From the NCBI RefSeq assembly GCF_029910235.1, contig NZ_CP112874.1:2728001-2792000 (forward strand): a DNA stretch of 64,000 nucleotides, in the 5' to 3' direction. The notes beneath the pieces are model-generated. The model had not been told where the DNA came from, searched no databases, and saw only the letters and a program-made list of their open reading frames with translations. The DNA comes from Pseudanabaena galeata CCNP1313 (GTDB taxonomy: Bacteria; Cyanobacteriota; Cyanobacteriia; Pseudanabaenales; Pseudanabaenaceae). Made by a program: the position numbers and the translations under genes. Shown here piece by piece: positions 2,443 to 55,160 of this stretch; positions within the stretch are counted from its first letter, which is position 1; every line of letters starts with the position of its first letter.

Positions 2443-3636
2443 ATGAATCACGTACTAATTGGAATATCTGGCGGCATTGCTGCTTATAAAGTTTGTGAGG
2501 TGGTTTCGAGTCTAGCCAAACGTGGAATCGAAGTGCGAGTAATCCTGACGCGATCCGCCTCGGAATTTGTGACTCCACTTACCTTTGCGACACTCTCGCG
2601 GCAACCAGCTTATACTGATGTAGACTTCTGGCAACCGAGTAATGGTAGACCCTTGCATATAGAGTTAGCAGAATGGGCGGATGTAATTTTATTAGCACCC
2701 ATGACCGCAAACACCTTGGCGAAAGTAGCCTATGGAATGGCTGATAACTTACTTACAAATACCTTACTCGCGGCTGAATGCCCAATTCTATTTGCTCCAG
2801 CGATGAATACGACGATGTGGTTGCAACCTACTGTTCAAGAGAATTGGCATAAAGTTTTGACATTCTCCAAATATACCGCGATCGCACCGACCGATGGAAT
2901 CCTCGCCTGTGATGCAGTTGGCACTGGACGGATGGCAGAACCAGAAATAATTTTGGAATATCTAGAGTCTTTTCTGTTTACCCAAGGGAAACAAGATCTT
3001 AAAGGAAAGAGGATTTTAGTGAATGCTGGCGGAACAAGAGAATTTATTGATCCTGTCCGCTTTATCGGCAATCCATCCACAGGAAAACAAGGACTTGCGA
3101 TCGCCAAAGCAGCTATTCATCGCGGAGCAAAAGTTACCCTCATTACTTCTAACTCCTCGCCGCTAGTGGGAAGTGGTTTAGGGGTGAAGACAGTCCGTAC
3201 TTCCGCCGAAATGCACCAAGCTATGCTCGAAGAATTTCCTAACGCTGATATTACGATTGCGGCGGCGGCTGTTGGTGATGTGCGATCTAAAATGCAAAGT
3301 GATCGTAAGCTACCAAAGTCAGAAATCCCCTTAAATTTAGAACTCGAATATATTCCTGATATTATTGCCGATCTCGCCACTCGTAAACGTCCTGATCAAA
3401 TACTGGTGGGATTTGCTGCTCAAACTGGAACTGAGGCAGAGGTTATGACCGCAGCACAAGAGAAATTGCAGCGAAAAGGACTAGATGCGATCGCGGCTAA
3501 TGCGGTCAATACTTCTTTAACAGGCTTTGGCACTGATACCAATCAAGCCATATTTATCCACAAAGAGGGACATGAGCAAACTACTCCTCTCTGCTCAAAA
3601 TTAGAACTTGCCCATCGCTTATTCGATTTCCTATAG
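2443..3636 (+). CDS. coaBC: Bifunctional phosphopantothenoylcysteine decarboxylase / phosphopantothenate-cysteine ligase
   Basis: A 397-residue CoaBC, the two-step enzyme of coenzyme A synthesis. The N-terminal flavoprotein half has GISGGIAAYK at the start, LAPMTANTLAK (the PASANT-type motif), FAPAMNTTMW and LACDAVGTGRMAEPE around the catalytic Cys. The C-terminal CoaB half starts near residue 185 with NAGGTREFIDPVRFIGN and keeps KQGLAIA and DITIAAAAVGD. Length is normal for the family. ATG 2443 is the first Met before the conserved start. The TAG stop overlaps the outer edge of the repeat element that follows (CTATAGCAATG). Confidence 0.95.
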   Translation: MNHVLIGISGGIAAYKVCEVVSSLAKRGIEVRVILTRSASEFVTPLTFATLSRQPAYTDVDFWQPSNGRPLHIELAEWADVILLAPMTANTLAKVAYGMADNLLTNTLLAAECPILFAPAMNTTMWLQPTVQENWHKVLTFSKYTAIAPTDGILACDAVGTGRMAEPEIILEYLESFLFTQGKQDLKGKRILVNAGGTREFIDPVRFIGNPSTGKQGLAIAKAAIHRGAKVTLITSNSSPLVGSGLGVKTVRTSAEMHQAMLEEFPNADITIAAAAVGDVRSKMQSDRKLPKSEIPLNLELEYIPDIIADLATRKRPDQILVGFAAQTGTEAEVMTAAQEKLQRKGLDAIAANAVNTSLTGFGTDTNQAIFIHKEGHEQTTPLCSKLELAHRLFDFL

Positions 3637-3639
3637 CAA

Positions 3640-3751
3640 TGTCAGATCGACGAAAGCGAAAAATGGTAAGAATCGCTAAGCGATTCTTACCATTTTCTGC
3701 CATTTGCGTCGTGCATCGCACGCCGCAAATGGCTATATTGAACTCACGTTA
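3640..3751. mobile_element. Family B double-hairpin element, copy 1
   Basis: Bounded by GTCAGATCGACGAAAGCG on the left and GAACTCACGTTA on the right, matching the family B ends (AACGTCAGTTCGA and its complement). Inside are hairpin 1 (arm AAAATGGTAAGAATCGC) and hairpin 2 (arm GCCATTTGCGTCGTGC). Hairpin 2 has one arm mismatch: the left arm reads GCGTCGTGC but the right arm reads GCACGCCGC. Other copies are at 45711-45823, 52854-52966 and 55047-55160. A 63-codon frame starting at 3639 runs through this and the next element and is not regarded as a gene. Confidence 0.75.
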
Positions 3752-3853
3752 TAGCAATGTAAGTTTTGCTAATAAAAACCAAAAGATGAGTGGCGGCGCT
3801 TCGCGCCGCCACTCATCTTTTGGTTTTTGATTTGTCCTAGCTATCTCTCTAGA
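3750..3853. mobile_element. Family C hairpin element, copy 1
   Basis: Starts TATAGCAATGTAAGTTTTGC and ends in a TGTCCTAGCTATCTCTC segment, with a long central hairpin (arm CCAAAAGATGAGTGGCGGCG, core TTCG). It abuts family B copy 1 with a shared TA, so the two are nested or joined. Related copies are at 47543-47658, 53005-53090 (truncated) and 54914-55029. Confidence 0.7.
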
Positions 3854-6687: not shown

Positions 6688-6845
6688 TTAATTAGGGGCT
6701 GTTAGCTATTAGCTATTAGCTGTTAGCTTTGGGCTTTTTTAGAAGAATATCAAGGCTACCAAGTGTTTATGTATCATAAGTAAGTCCACTAAAAGCTAAA
6801 AGCTAAAAGCTAAAAGCTAATCGCTAAAAGCTAATCGCTAATTAA
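6688..6845. repeat. Heptamer repeat element (AGCTTTT/AGCTAAT type), copy 1
   Basis: The left part has tandem GTTAGCTATTAGC units (about 6700-6728) and the right part has inverted AAAAGCT/AAAGCTAATCGCT units (about 6789-6841), so the two ends are inverted repeats made of 7-bp tandem units. The 3' edge touches the tsaD start codon region. A second copy lies between groES and groEL (44749-44878). Confidence 0.65.
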
Positions 6846-6846
6846 A

Positions 6847-7872
6847 ATGCCAACTATTCTTGCGATCGAATCTAGCTGTGATGAAACTGCGGCGGCGGTG
6901 GTATACGATCGCCAAATTCTTAGTAGCGTAGTTTCATCGCAAATTCAGACCCATGCACTCTATGGCGGCGTTGTGCCTGAGATTGCGGCGCGTCAGCATG
7001 TGGAGACGATTAATCCTGCGATCGCCCAAGCCTATCGTGAATCGGGTAAAACATGGGCTGATATTGACGGGATTGCGGTGACGACTGCCCCCGGACTAAT
7101 TGGCTCGCTGATGATCGGCGTAACAGCGGCGAAAACCTTGGCAATGCTGCATAAAAAGCCTTTGATTGCCGTGCATCACCTTGAGGGGCATATATGTTCA
7201 GCTTTGTTAGCTGATCCAGCTTTGGAGCCACCTTTCCTATGTTTACTAGTCTCTGGCGGACATAGCAGCATTATTTTGGTCAAGGACTACACCGACTATC
7301 AGGTGATGGGTAAAACCCGCGATGATGCGGCGGGTGAGGCTTTTGATAAGGTAGCAAGGTTGTTAGGTTTGGGTTACCCTGGGGGCCCAGCAATTGACAA
7401 AATTGCGATCGCGGGAAATCCGAAAGCCTACAAATTGCCACAGGGAAGAATCCCCGATTTTCCCTATGATTCCAGTTTTAGCGGCTTAAAGACTGCGGTA
7501 TTGCGCTTAACCCAAAAGCTAAGTCCCAATGGCGAAGAGTTGCCGATCGCGGATATTGCGGCTAGTTTCCAAGAAACCGTAGCGGCGGCTCTAGCTATAA
7601 GGACAATCAAATGTGCGCTTGAGCATAATTTATCGACAATTGTGGCGGTCGGTGGTGTGGCGGCGAATAGTGCTTTGCGATCGCGTCTGGTAACAAGTGC
7701 GGCAGAGCATGACATTCGTGCCATTTTTCCGCCTTTGAGTCTATGCACGGATAACGCGGCGATGATTGGCTGTGCGGGAGCGATTCATCTGGCACGCGGC
7801 GAAACTTCGTCGATGAATATTGCCACGCGATCGCGCCTAAATCTCGAAGATTGCCAAAGCTTATATTCATAA
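6847..7872 (+). CDS. tsaD: tRNA N6-adenosine threonylcarbamoyltransferase (TsaD)
   Basis: A 341-residue Kae1/TsaD protein that transfers threonylcarbamoyl to A37 of ANN-decoding tRNAs. It starts [17 protein letters not shown], carries the metal-binding HHLEGH (H111, H115), then LVSGGHS and [22 protein letters not shown], and ends with [11 protein letters not shown] and the D of CTDNAAMIG. Length is typical. ATG 6847 is the only plausible start. A G/C-run palindrome follows the gene. Confidence 0.97.
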
Positions 7873-10911: not shown

Positions 10912-11166
10912 CTGATGCTACGTGGAAGGAATTCCTGCGACCCTCAAGGTTGGGGGCTGGCACGGGGGGCTGGCACGGGGGGCTGGCACGGGGGGCTGGC
11001 ACGGGGGGCTGGCACGGGGGGCTGGCACGGGGGGCTGGCACGGGGGGCTGGCACGGGGGCGCAGCCCCTACTAGTTCAAAATTGTACAGGTAGGGGCAAT
11101 GCCCCCGTGCTTGCCCTGTCACGCTAGCAGTAGGAGATTCATCATCTGCGTTCCACGTAACATCAG
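10912..11166. mobile_element. Family A element, copy 2, with expanded tandem repeat
   Basis: Ends are CTGATGCTACGTGGAA and TTCCACGTAACATCAG, flanked by a perfect 7-bp target duplication TCAGTAA (10905-10911 and 11167-11173). The interior is in the opposite orientation to copies 1 and 3 and contains eight 13-bp units. No protein is encoded. Confidence 0.82.
10951..11054. repeat. Eight tandem 13-bp units GGGGGGCTGGCAC
   Basis: CTGGCAC recurs exactly every 13 bp at 10957, 10970, 10983, 10996, 11009, 11022, 11035 and 11048, separated by six G. The unit appears once in the related family A copies. Since 13 is not a multiple of 3, it keeps open reading frames on both strands by chance; these are not genes. 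Confidence 0.9.
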
Positions 11167-21905: not shown

Positions 21906-24900
21906 ATGGCTTCGCGGTTTTATGCGTTGGTGTTTGTGGCTCTGACTGGAGTTTTGGGCATGGTGTCGCCGCCTGATTTAGCTTTGATGACGGTGCTGGC
22001 GCAAACAGCAGAGGAGCGCAAGGCGGAAGAAGATCGAGTCTTAAAGTCATGTCGCGATAATTTGAATGCTCAAAAGTTTCAAGAGGGATTATTGGCTTGT
22101 CAGGCGGCGTTAGAGGATTTCAAAAAAACTGATAACTTGAGGGGACAGGGACTTACTCTTAACAATATCGGTGTTGCCTATAACGCTCTCAATCAATATC
22201 AAAAAGCGATTGATAATTTACAACAAGCTTTAAAGATCGTAAGGGAAGTCAAAGATCAACGAATTGAAAGACTAGCTGTTGGCAATCTGGCAACTAGCTA
22301 CGAAAAGCTGGGTAACTTTGACAAAGCGATCGAGTTCCATCTGCAAAGCTTAGCTATTACGAGAGAACTCAAAGACCGTAGCGGTGAGGGAAATGCGCTG
22401 GGGAATTTGGGAAACGCTTACTATGATCTCGACAAATATGACAAAGTGATCGAGTTCCAACTGCAAAGATTAGCTATTACAAGAGAACTCAAAGACCGTA
22501 GCGGTGAGGGAAATGCGCTGGGGGATTTGGGAAACGCTTACCTAGCCCTCGGCAAATATGACAAAGCGATCGAGTTCCATTTGCAAGACTTAGCGATCAC
22601 GCGGGAAATCAAAGACCGTCGCAGTGAGGGACAGTCGCTGGGAAATCTGGGAGTCGCTTACGATTACCTCGGCAAATATGACAAAGCGATCGAGTTCCAT
22701 CTGCAAAGTTTAGAAATCAAGCGGAAAATCAAAGACCGTCTCGGTGAGGGAAATTCACTAGGAAATCTGGGAAGCGCTTACCTAGCCCTCGGCAAATATG
22801 ACAAAGCGATCGAGTTCCATCTGCAAAGATTAGCGATCGCGCGGGAAATCAAAGACCGTCGTGGTGAGGGGCGGTCGCTCGGAAATCTAGGACTCGCTTA
22901 CGATTTACTCGGCAAATATGACAAAGCGATCGAGTTTCATCTGCAAAGCATAGAAATCAGGCGGGAAATTAAAGACCGTAGCGGTGAGGGAAATGCACTG
23001 GGAAATCTGGGAGTCGCTTACCGAAACCTCGGCAAATATGACAAATCAATCGAGTTACATCTGCAAAGCTTAGAGATCGCGAGGGAAATCAAAAACCGTC
23101 AAGGCGAGGGAAATGCGCTAGGAAGTCTTGGAATCGCTTACTATTCCCTTGGCAAATATGACAAAGCGATCGAGTTACATCTGCAAAGCTTAGAGATCGC
23201 GAGAGAAATCAAAAACCGTCAAGGTGAGGGAAATGCGCTGGGAGGGCTGGGAAACGCATACTATTCCCTTAGCAAATACGACAAAGCGATTGAGAACTAT
23301 CTAGAATGGTTAGCAATTGCGCGGGAAACCAAAGACCGTCGCAGTGAGGGAACTGCGCTCGGAAATCTTGGAGTCGCTTACGATTCCCTCGGCAAATATG
23401 ACAAAGTGATCGAATTCCAAATGCAATGGTTAGCGATCGCACAGGAAATCAAAGACCGTCGCAGTGAGGGAACGGCGCTGAATAATTTAGCCGTTGCCTA
23501 CGGAAAACTAAATCGCGATCGCGAAGCGATGATTTATTATCAGCAAGCATTGAGCATTGCTAGAGAAATTGGCGATCGAGGGAGTGAAGGTTTAACTCTC
23601 GCAAATTTAGGAGATGTATTATCCAAAGCCAAACGACCCGAACTAGCGATTCTCTTTTACAAACAATCGATCAATGTCCGCGAAGCCATCCGCAAAGACA
23701 TCAGCAAACTCGATAAGGACATCCAAAAATCCTACTTAGCCACAGTCGAATCTACCTACCGCAACCTCGCCGATCTCCTGCTCAAAGAAGACCGCATCCT
23801 CGAATCACAACAAGTCCTCGACCTCCTCAAAGTCCAAGAACTCAGCGACTACTTTAAAACTGTGCGCGGCAACAACCAAACCTCCCAAGGAGTCGATCTG
23901 CAACGTCCCGAACAAAACATTATTGCCCTTGCCACCGAACTCAACCAACTGCAACAAAAAGACCGAGAAGGCAAACTAGACCAAACAGAAGCACAACGCC
24001 TTGCCCAACTTGTCCGAGCCGAACGCGACCAAAATAAACAATTTAACTCCTTCCTCGATAGCCCCGAAATCAAGAAGCTCATCACCGAACTGCGCCGCGT
24101 TGAAGACAATCAAAACGTTGACGTAGCTAAGTATCGCAAATTACAAAAAGATCTTCTTTCGCAATTTCCTAAAGCTGTCCTTCTCTATCCCCTCATTCTC
24201 GAAGATCGCCTAGAGCTAGTTATCCTCAACGCCAACACCCCACCACTGCGGCGCACCGTCAACATCAAACGCGAAGATCTTAATGAAGCAATAATTACCT
24301 TATTGATCGAACTAAGAGACAAAACCCTATCACCCGAAGTCAAGGAAAACTCACAGAAGCTTTATAACATCCTGATCAAGCCCTTTGAAGCTGAACTTGC
24401 CCAACTTAACATCGACACGATTATCTATGCCCCAGACGGACAACTGCGCTATATTCCCCTTGGCAGTCTCCATGACGGTAAACAATGGCTAGTCGAGAAA
24501 TATCGGATTAATAACATCACCGCCGAATCCTTGACCGCCTTTAACAGCAAACCTATAACCAATCCGCGCATCTTTGCAGGTGCATTTGGAGGCAAAGGTG
24601 GCGAAATTCGTGCAGGTTTTAGCGGATTACCCGCAACTATCAACGAAGTCCAAAAAATTGCTAGCCAATTTCCAAACACCACCAAACTCATTGAAAAGGA
24701 ATTTACCAAGAGCATTACTGAAGACAGAGCAAACTCCTATACGATTTTGCATTTAGCTACCCACGGAAAGCTAGCAGTCGGTACACCCGAAGATTCTTTT
24801 ATTCTGTTTGGCAATGGCGAAAAAGTAACTATTAGCGAACTTAAGGACTGGAATTTAAGCAATATAGATCTAGTGGTGCTAAGTGCCTGTCAGACAGCAT

Positions 24901-31971: not shown

Positions 31972-32021
31972 TCTAAAATGCGCTCAAATAACGCCCAAAC
32001 AACATAATTGTATATTAACGT

Positions 32022-32345
32022 CAGTTCGACGGAGTAGACAAAAGCAAAAGAAAAGCTGAGACTAGTAGTCCGCCACTAGAACTTTGACTAGTTGGGGGTT
32101 ATCGAAACGAGCTTTGCTCGTTTCGATAACCCCGCAAATTTCCTTTGGCAGTCTACATCGCCTTTCATGGGTCAGGATACAAAAGAGCATTCAAGACATC
32201 CCAGTTTTTTTAATTTTCTTGTCAACCTTTTAGCTGGGTTGGTTGCTTATACATATCGAGAGACTAAACCTGCTTTAGATCTTCTCTTCAAAGGCTTGCC
32301 TGCTCTTCATCATGCCATCTTTTAGTGCGTCGAACTCACGTTATG
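32022..32345. repeat. Split family B ends around a relic segment
   Basis: ACGTCAGTTCGACGGAG (32021-32037) and TCGAACTCACGTTATG (32329-32344) resemble the two ends of family B, but the usual two hairpins are absent. Between them are a different hairpin (TTATCGAAACGAGC arm, 32100-32133) and a short frame resembling a transposase end. This looks like an element broken up by later events. Confidence 0.4.
32139..32325 (+). pseudogene. Possible transposase C-terminal remnant
   Basis: The frame encodes [20 protein letters not shown] followed by [19 protein letters not shown] and a stop. The [15 protein letters not shown] string looks like the C-terminal helix of a DDE transposase, but I cannot name the family and there is no catalytic part. 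Upstream sequence is not coding. Confidence 0.3.
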
Positions 32346-43072: not shown

Positions 43073-44877
<1,805 letters not shown>

Positions 44878-45710: not shown

Positions 45711-45823
45711 TCGTCAGTTCGACAAAAGCAGAAAATGGTAAGAATCGCTAAGCAATTCTTACCATTTTCCGCCATTTGCGGCGTGCCTCGCACGCCGCAA
45801 ATGGCTATATCGAACTCACGTTA
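45711..45823. mobile_element. Family B double-hairpin element, copy 2
   Basis: TCGTCAGTTCGACAAAAGC to TCGAACTCACGTTA. Hairpin 2 has the fully paired GCGGCGTGC/GCACGCCGC state. Its right end supplies the TAA stop codon of the - strand gene that begins at 45821. Confidence 0.78.
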
Positions 45824-47542: not shown

Positions 47543-47658
47543 TATAGCAACGCAAGAGATAGATAGGACAAATCAAAACCAAAAAGATGAGTGGCGGCGC
47601 AAAGCGCCGCCACTCATCTTTTTGGTTTTATGTCCTAAGCAAAACTTACATTGCTATA
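47543..47658. mobile_element. Family C hairpin element, copy 2
   Basis: Ends TATAGCAACGCAAGAGATAG and AACTTACATTGCTATA with AGGACA inside; central hairpin arm CCAAAAAGATGAGTGGCGGC, core GCAAAGC. Opposite orientation to copies 1 and 4. No gene in it. Confidence 0.75.
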
Positions 47659-52853: not shown

Positions 52854-52966
52854 ACGTCAGTTCGATGAAAGCTAAAAATGGGAAGAATCGCTAAGCGATT
52901 CTTCCCATTTTTAGCCATTTGCGTCGTGCTTCGCACGACGCAAATGGCTATATCGAACTCACGTTA
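52854..52966. mobile_element. Family B double-hairpin element, copy 3
   Basis: ACGTCAGTTCGATGAAAGC to TCGAACTCACGTTA, with a candidate 5-bp duplication AATAC on both sides. Hairpin 1 has arm ATGGGAAGAATCGC (changed in both arms relative to copies 1, 2 and 4). Hairpin 2 is fully paired (GCGTCGTGC/GCACGACGC). Confidence 0.8.
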
Positions 52967-53090
52967 ATACCAATTCACAAAAGTGTTGTTACTCTTTTGT
53001 GAATCAAAAACCAAAAAGATGAGTGGCGGCGCTTCGCGCCGCCACTCATCTTTTTGGTTTTATGTCCTAAGCAAAACTTACATTGCTATA
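52967..53090. mobile_element. Half family D fused to truncated family C copy 3
   Basis: ATACCAATTCACAAAAGTGT and its hairpin are the left part of family D, but it then enters the family C hairpin (arm CCAAAAAGATGAGTGGCGGC) and ends AACTTACATTGCTATA. The C left end and the D right end are missing, so this is a join of two elements. Confidence 0.65.
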
Positions 53091-54913: not shown

Positions 54914-55029
54914 TATAGCAATGTAAGTTTTGCTTAGGACATAAAACCAAAAAGATGAATGGCGGCGCTTCGCGCCGCCATTCATCTTTTTGGTTTTGAT
55001 TTGTTCTATCTATCTCTTGCGTAGCTATA
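54914..55029. mobile_element. Family C hairpin element, copy 4
   Basis: TATAGCAATGTAAGTTTTGC to CTCTTGCGTAGCTATA. Arms CCAAAAAGATGAATGGCGGC/complement differ from copies 1-3 (GTGG to ATGG) on both sides of the stem. Confidence 0.78.
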
Positions 55030-55046: not shown

Positions 55047-55160
55047 TAACGTGAGTTCGATATAGCCATTTGCGTCGTGCTTCGCACGACGCAAATGGCG
55101 AAAAATGGTAAGAATCGCTTAGCGATTCTTACCATTTTTCACAGTCGTCGAACTGACGTT
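55047..55160. mobile_element. Family B double-hairpin element, copy 4 (reverse)
   Basis: AACGTGAGTTCGATATAGCC to TCGTCGAACTGACGTT, with candidate 5-bp duplication GTGTT on both sides. Hairpin order is inverted relative to copies 1-3. All stems fully paired. Confidence 0.8.

Follow-up and report, generated by a model that had tools for sequence, protein, structure and literature searches.

Compensatory changes in the two arms of a stem are conventionally taken to show that an RNA or DNA fold is functional. Homogenization of hairpin arms and inversion of the spacer between them by template switching have been described in E. coli, in yeast, and in rRNA genes from across life (PMC7202029, PMC8604942, PMC8794818). 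In the Ripley model and the E. coli lacZ QP reporters, an imperfect inverted repeat is perfected by arm-to-arm copying (PMC7202029); in yeast genes, arms are made identical and short spacers are inverted, including a change from TTC to GAA (PMC8604942); and in rRNA hairpins, one switch explains instant compensatory changes, with loop inversion as the strongest footprint (PMC8794818). Exact loop inversion is a hallmark of interstrand template switching (PMC8604942, PMC8794818). Minute hairpin inversions are also a known nuisance in chloroplast DNA, where, as Kelchner and Wendel (1996) are cited in PMC2903610, the loops of non-coding hairpins flip repeatedly and homoplasiously.

Here, we describe a repeat family of the cyanobacterium Pseudanabaena galeata CCNP1313 that resembles each of these systems in a different setting. 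The lacZ system is an engineered reporter, whereas our record comes from a high-copy family in nature and from orthologous hairpins across the genus, and we infer the process by comparison. The yeast study reports ten spacer inversions in coding sequence (PMC8604942), against 14 strict cases among 71 hairpins here, in a cyanobacterium and with many mobile or repeated palindromes. In rRNA, compensatory change combined with loop inversion is extremely rare, at 6 cases, which the authors tie to the conservation of rRNA loops (PMC8794818), whereas here the loops appear free to flip. The chloroplast cases, as cited in PMC2903610, concern plant plastids and do not have paired arm changes as their point, whereas ours come from a free-living cyanobacterium. 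Among literature titles and abstract openings, with subscription journals mostly outside the search, we found no description of either this element or the template-switch process in cyanobacteria. The element thus adds a new example to a familiar kind, and the process is already known and has left an unusually rich natural record here.

The window, by which we mean the whole stretch of 64,000 nucleotides analyzed, contains four copies of one 111-bp repeat, each with two hairpins (Table 1). The element starts at or near ACGTCAGTTCGA and finishes with TCGAACTCACGT, its ends forming an imperfect inverted repeat. Hairpin 1 has 19 pairs as counted and a TAA or TTA loop, and hairpin 2 has 16 pairs and a loop of TTC, GAA or variants of these. 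Folded as single-stranded DNA, the four copies give z scores of -8.9 to -16.2, with none of 200 shuffles equal, so that the hairpin fold is far beyond chance; an Rfam search of the window gave no match at the gathering threshold. The hairpin-2 arms read GCGTCGTGC/GCACGCCGC in copy 1, leaving its mismatch, GCGGCGTGC/GCACGCCGC in copy 2, and GCGTCGTGC/GCACGACGC in copies 3 and 4, and in hairpin 1 copy 3 carries TGGGAAG/CTTCCCA in place of TGGTAAG/CTTACCA. The preliminary description had reported four copies with the same two hairpins, all of these arm sequences, the mismatched hairpin 2 of copy 1 and the paired hairpin-1 change of copy 3, and each is present as it said. That description left out that hairpin 1 is mismatched in copy 1 (Table 1) and also in copy 2, where the mismatches lie close to the loop and in the outermost pair. 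It also left out that the hairpin-2 loop is different in every window copy, and two of its forms, TTC and GAA, are reverse complements of each other. Other repeats in the window are included in Table 1.

Table 1. Features of the window, with positions counted from its first nucleotide.
Feature	Position	Strand	Details
MITE copy 1	3639-3749	+	Flanked on either side by the 7-bp target duplication TATAGCA (3632-3638, 3750-3756)
Hairpin 1 of copy 1	3658..3698	+	Loop TAA; mismatches in the two outermost pairs (GA on the left, CT on the right)
Hairpin 2 of copy 1	3699..3733	+	Loop ATC; T.C mismatch where most copies have G-C or T-A
MITE copy 2	45711-45821	+	Hairpin 2 of G-C type, loop CTC
MITE copy 3	52854-52964	+	Hairpin 2 of T-A type, loop TTC; target duplication TAATACC
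Hairpin 1 of copy 3	within 52854-52964	+	Paired change, T-A to G-C
MITE copy 4	55049-55159	-	Hairpin 2 of T-A type, with GAA, the inverse of TTC, as its loop; target duplication TAACACA
Internally deleted IS982-family copy, ~324 bp	32018..32341	+	Same terminal repeats, ACGTCAGTTCGACGG...GCGTCGAACTCACGT
Second palindromic family (AAAACCAAAAAGATGAGTGGCGGCGC..., near TATAGCAATGTAAGTTTTGC)	3774-3828, 47575-47629, 53007-53061, 54943-54997, and related		Loop also varies: TTC/GAA/AAA
Tandem array	22110-23489		120-bp units, about ten copies, mostly 70-76% alike
Tandem 13-bp repeat	10939-11081		GGGGGCTGGCACG; adjoins a hairpin-rich repeat
Heptamer arrays	6789-6859 and 44731-44801		CTAAAAG, in opposite orientation

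The 111-bp repeat is a non-autonomous transposon (MITE) with IS982-type ends. It is short, lacks a transposase gene, and is present in many copies: its right end has 297 matches with at most 3 mismatches in the 5.84-Mb P. galeata genome (G000). Among 100 copies in this genome, 51 have a target duplication of exactly 7 bp and 61 have one of 6-9 bp, compared with duplications in 3/100 when flanks are shuffled, and the preferred target is TAAWTTA; in an independent subfamily of a related genome, G022, 24/39 copies have target duplications. No empty sites for the P. galeata insertions were found in the compared stretches of related genomes. About 11 genomic sites also carry paired ends ACGTCAGTTCGAC[GA]G / ACGTGAGTTCGACGC at a spacing of 1003 bp, and the 303-aa open reading frame of this longer element matches the IS982 model NF033520 at 255.7 bits (cut-off 130) as well as PF13612; the closest named relative found for the transposase is from Pseudanabaena mucicola FACHB-723, at 94% identity. 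Like IS982 insertion sequences and their non-autonomous derivatives, the MITE has the terminal repeats ACGTSAGTTCGA(C), common to the full IS982 elements of the same genome, and 7-bp duplications as in the IS982 family. Only about the first 12-15 bases are common to the two, however, and the two-hairpin interior of the MITE is not derived from the insertion sequence. Judging from these shared ends, the MITE presumably moves by means of the IS982-family transposase encoded in this genome. Its IS982 ends and 7-bp duplications also led us to reject classification as a REP/IS200-type palindrome.

Two further kinds of element accompany the family in the P. galeata genome. Another MITE-like family (L005:1300-1500, L099, L104) has the same outermost terminal repeat (...CCCGAACTSACGT) around a different interior with two hairpins, and is possibly mobilized by the same transposase. 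Short 67-bp versions of the element (L039, L067, L094) are perfect palindromes of two right halves; they resemble what a template switch copying the whole right half would leave, and they have apparently transposed as such, the version at L094 being flanked by a 7-bp duplication, TGTTTTA.

Paired arm changes exceed chance by a wide margin in two genomes. We sampled 100 ungapped full copies of the roughly 300 in P. galeata, by 3'-end match and map order, and counted paired and single-arm changes as cells; these count copies rather than events and, given shared ancestry, are not fully independent. Hairpin 1 has 33 paired and 20 single cells and hairpin 2 has 23 and 49, while the terminal inverted repeats, a control of the same age whose arms are separated by ~100 bp, have 0 and 54. 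When one arm is shuffled among the copies, 2.5, 6.8 and 0.15 paired cells remain on average, respectively, so that the stems together show 56 paired cells against about 9 under independence, alongside 69 single ones. The P. galeata end retrieved mostly diverged copies from G014, G022 and G025, and a subfamily-specific query was used instead; the 37 copies of the G022 subfamily give paired/single counts of 26/6 for hairpin 1, 20/20 for hairpin 2 (46 against 26 for both stems) and 0/34 for the terminal repeats, which show no correction in either genome. At the hairpin-2 site that distinguishes the window copies (columns 70/84), the 100 copies are G-C in 65, T-A in 17, T.C in 13 and G.A in 5.

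Single-arm mismatches are at least as common as paired changes in P. galeata, so the arms are not strictly kept matched. The preliminary description had asserted that the arms are kept complementary, and this proved too strong, although paired changes do far exceed both independence and the terminal-repeat control. It had also proposed that the idea should fall if single-arm mismatches equaled paired changes; by number they do so in P. galeata, but we judge that test invalid because correction is expected to work against a steady input of single-arm mutations. Paired changes are properly judged against the independence expectation and the terminal repeats, and the frequent mismatches reflect incomplete correction. 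Of the two causes it offered, palindrome-directed repair or selection on the fold, the data support correction of the palindrome, with fold selection unneeded and disfavored.

The loops vary in a manner that selection for pairing does not predict, namely by exact inversion, a feature that the preliminary description missed. Among the 100 copies, hairpin 2 has TTC in 38, GAA in 46, TTT in 8 and AAA in 6, while hairpin 1 is skewed, with TAA in 78 and TTA in 20 rather than 50:50. Both hairpin-2 orientations occur within each arm subgroup (28 TTC and 28 GAA in the G-C type), and 19 copies that are identical outside the loops display five loop combinations. A two-arc contrast of loop orientation, drawn without reference to a known origin, gave a permutation p of about 0.04, which is only suggestive of a replication-direction bias.

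Related species show these changes at the same locus. One insertion common to P. galeata, G009 and G018 (set A) has the loops TTT, TTC and GAA, respectively; in two other shared insertions (sets B and E) the arm is matched in one species and mismatched in the other; a fourth (set D) has a paired change in hairpin 1; and a different palindromic repeat (set C) combines a paired change with an inverted loop. The locus of window copy 2, which its right flank and the neighboring repeat on the left identify as shared with G009 and G018, reads GCGGCGTGC|CTC|GCACGCCGC in P. galeata, GCGTCGTGC|GAA|GCACGACGC in G009 and GCGTCGTGA|TTC|GCACGACGC in G018, so that GGC/GCC faces GTC/GAC in two sister species: the change that separates copies within the window also separates species at a single locus. 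In a palindrome of related genomes that resembles the second palindromic family of the window (Table 1), at L307:7937 compared with G018, an arm pair is changed and the loop flipped at the same locus.

For a systematic count we required at least 130 bp aligned on each side and a flank divergence of at most 13% (mean 5.3%), since many first-pass 'orthologs' with flanks more than 12% diverged were rejected as paralogs. Copy 2 fails this filter on the left, where its flank is occupied by another repeat; we examined it manually, outside the filtered set. Several 20-kb stretches yielded few orthologs because synteny between P. galeata and G018 is short. The sampled stretches provided 71 ungapped orthologous hairpins after removal of duplicates, in comparisons that are partly three-way on the same loci, hence not fully independent, and that leave the direction of change unpolarized by an outgroup. 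Their loops are the same in 31 cases, exactly inverted with at least two differences in 14, inverted with one difference in 5 and otherwise changed in 21, 9 of which are nearer to the inverse. About 0.0004 exact three-base inversions are expected against the 14 strict cases, and outside hairpins a fully changed triplet was exactly inverted in 14 of 225,992 windows. In the stems, both members differ in 33 pairs that remain complementary, where independence predicts 1.3, and such changes occur at 8.8 times the rate of control pairs outside hairpins; 103 pairs are changed on one side only. At some hairpins orthologous between G014 and G022 (L328:15632, L326:13866), numerous changes cluster in a single arm or in both, which resembles the rewriting of an arm by an asymmetric template switch.

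We propose that these patterns very probably arise by template switching during replication, that is, by quasipalindrome correction with spacer inversion, with no need for selection on the fold. The two internal hairpins of the MITE would act as natural quasipalindromes at which the nascent strand at times switches template. Intrastrand fold-back would copy one arm from the other and keep the loop, either erasing a single-arm mutation or making it a matched pair, and an interstrand switch across the hairpin would invert the loop; repeated switching of both forms could then generate paired arm changes, mismatched intermediates and both loop orientations. The position of changes along the stem is consistent with this scheme. 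Between orthologs, the four loop-proximal pairs contain 2/33 paired changes against 35/103 single ones (Fisher P = 0.0013), and distinct changes show the same trend within families (P = 0.02 in P. galeata, P = 0.04 in G022). This avoidance is what fold-back priming would produce, since annealing would start at the loop-proximal pairs and copying of the distal arm would follow; selection alone gives no grounds for expecting it.

Loss of repair nucleases was considered as a cause and rejected. The genome has two sbcD genes and xseA, and while ExoI was not found, the same search matched only E. coli among 14 control genomes, so this negative result explains nothing by itself. It is unlikely, in our estimate, that these cyanobacteria possess an unusually strong, perhaps enzyme-assisted, hairpin-flipping activity that turns the loops of short hairpins genome-wide several times faster than bases substitute (by arithmetic on the ortholog counts, about 7 times the per-site rate when inversions are counted strictly and about 14 times when counted generously) and that amounts to a natural phase-flipping system.

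Selection on the folded form, whether for transposition, RNA stability or termination, with second mutations that restore pairing, would also produce an excess of paired changes in the stems and none in the terminal repeats. We nonetheless find it quite improbable. Stems change about as fast as unpaired sites and flanks, both within the family (0.023-0.030 substitutions per site against 0.033 at unpaired element positions) and between orthologs (0.069 against 0.053 at unpaired and flank comparison sites), and single-arm mismatches persist widely. Many paired types are transversional (8/15 and 8/23), for which a G-U intermediate is impossible. Fold selection further leaves the loop inversions unexplained, and the same pattern appears in unrelated hairpins, one of them without near-identical paralogs.

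Ectopic gene conversion or recombination could instead spread ready-made paired variants and loop types among the ~300 copies, as the high copy number and the recurrence of the G-C and T-A types of hairpin 2 in many copies would allow. Such exchange creates no new paired alleles, however, yet many are private to one copy (7 types in P. galeata and 15 in G022, among sampled copies), and it predicts no loop-proximal avoidance. In-place pairs and inversions also occur at hairpins that lack near-identical paralogs: hairpin L308:1639, which differs by two paired changes in place, lacks a near-identical second copy throughout the G009 and G018 genomes, where its best other match is 75% identical over part of the query, and for other changed hairpins such paralogs are absent within the compared stretches. 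As the principal explanation conversion is therefore very unlikely, although it can mimic some events and may be part of why copies of the family have variants in common. Still further from credible is the amplification by transposition of a few master elements with differing arms and loops and no in-place change, since, while some paired types are common to several copies (T-A at columns 70/84 in 17, AG/CT in 6), loops flip inside every arm subgroup and the same insertion differs between species, so that orthologous loci refute it as sole cause and leave it to explain part of the sharing.

Template switching at quasipalindromes thus bears on how covariation is read. Paired changes and in-place loop inversions, found together in mobile repeats and in unrelated hairpins, point to a mutational process; covariation in such repeats should consequently not be taken as evidence of function without a loop-inversion control. 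The family offers what the rRNA study (PMC8794818) lacked, namely many hairpins with loops that are seemingly free to flip, and the likeness to the minute inversions of chloroplasts makes a comparison with cyanobacteria of interest. Since it numbers ~300 copies per genome and has orthologous insertions in sister species, the family may serve as a natural reporter of template-switch rates, of intrastrand and interstrand use, and of replication-direction bias.
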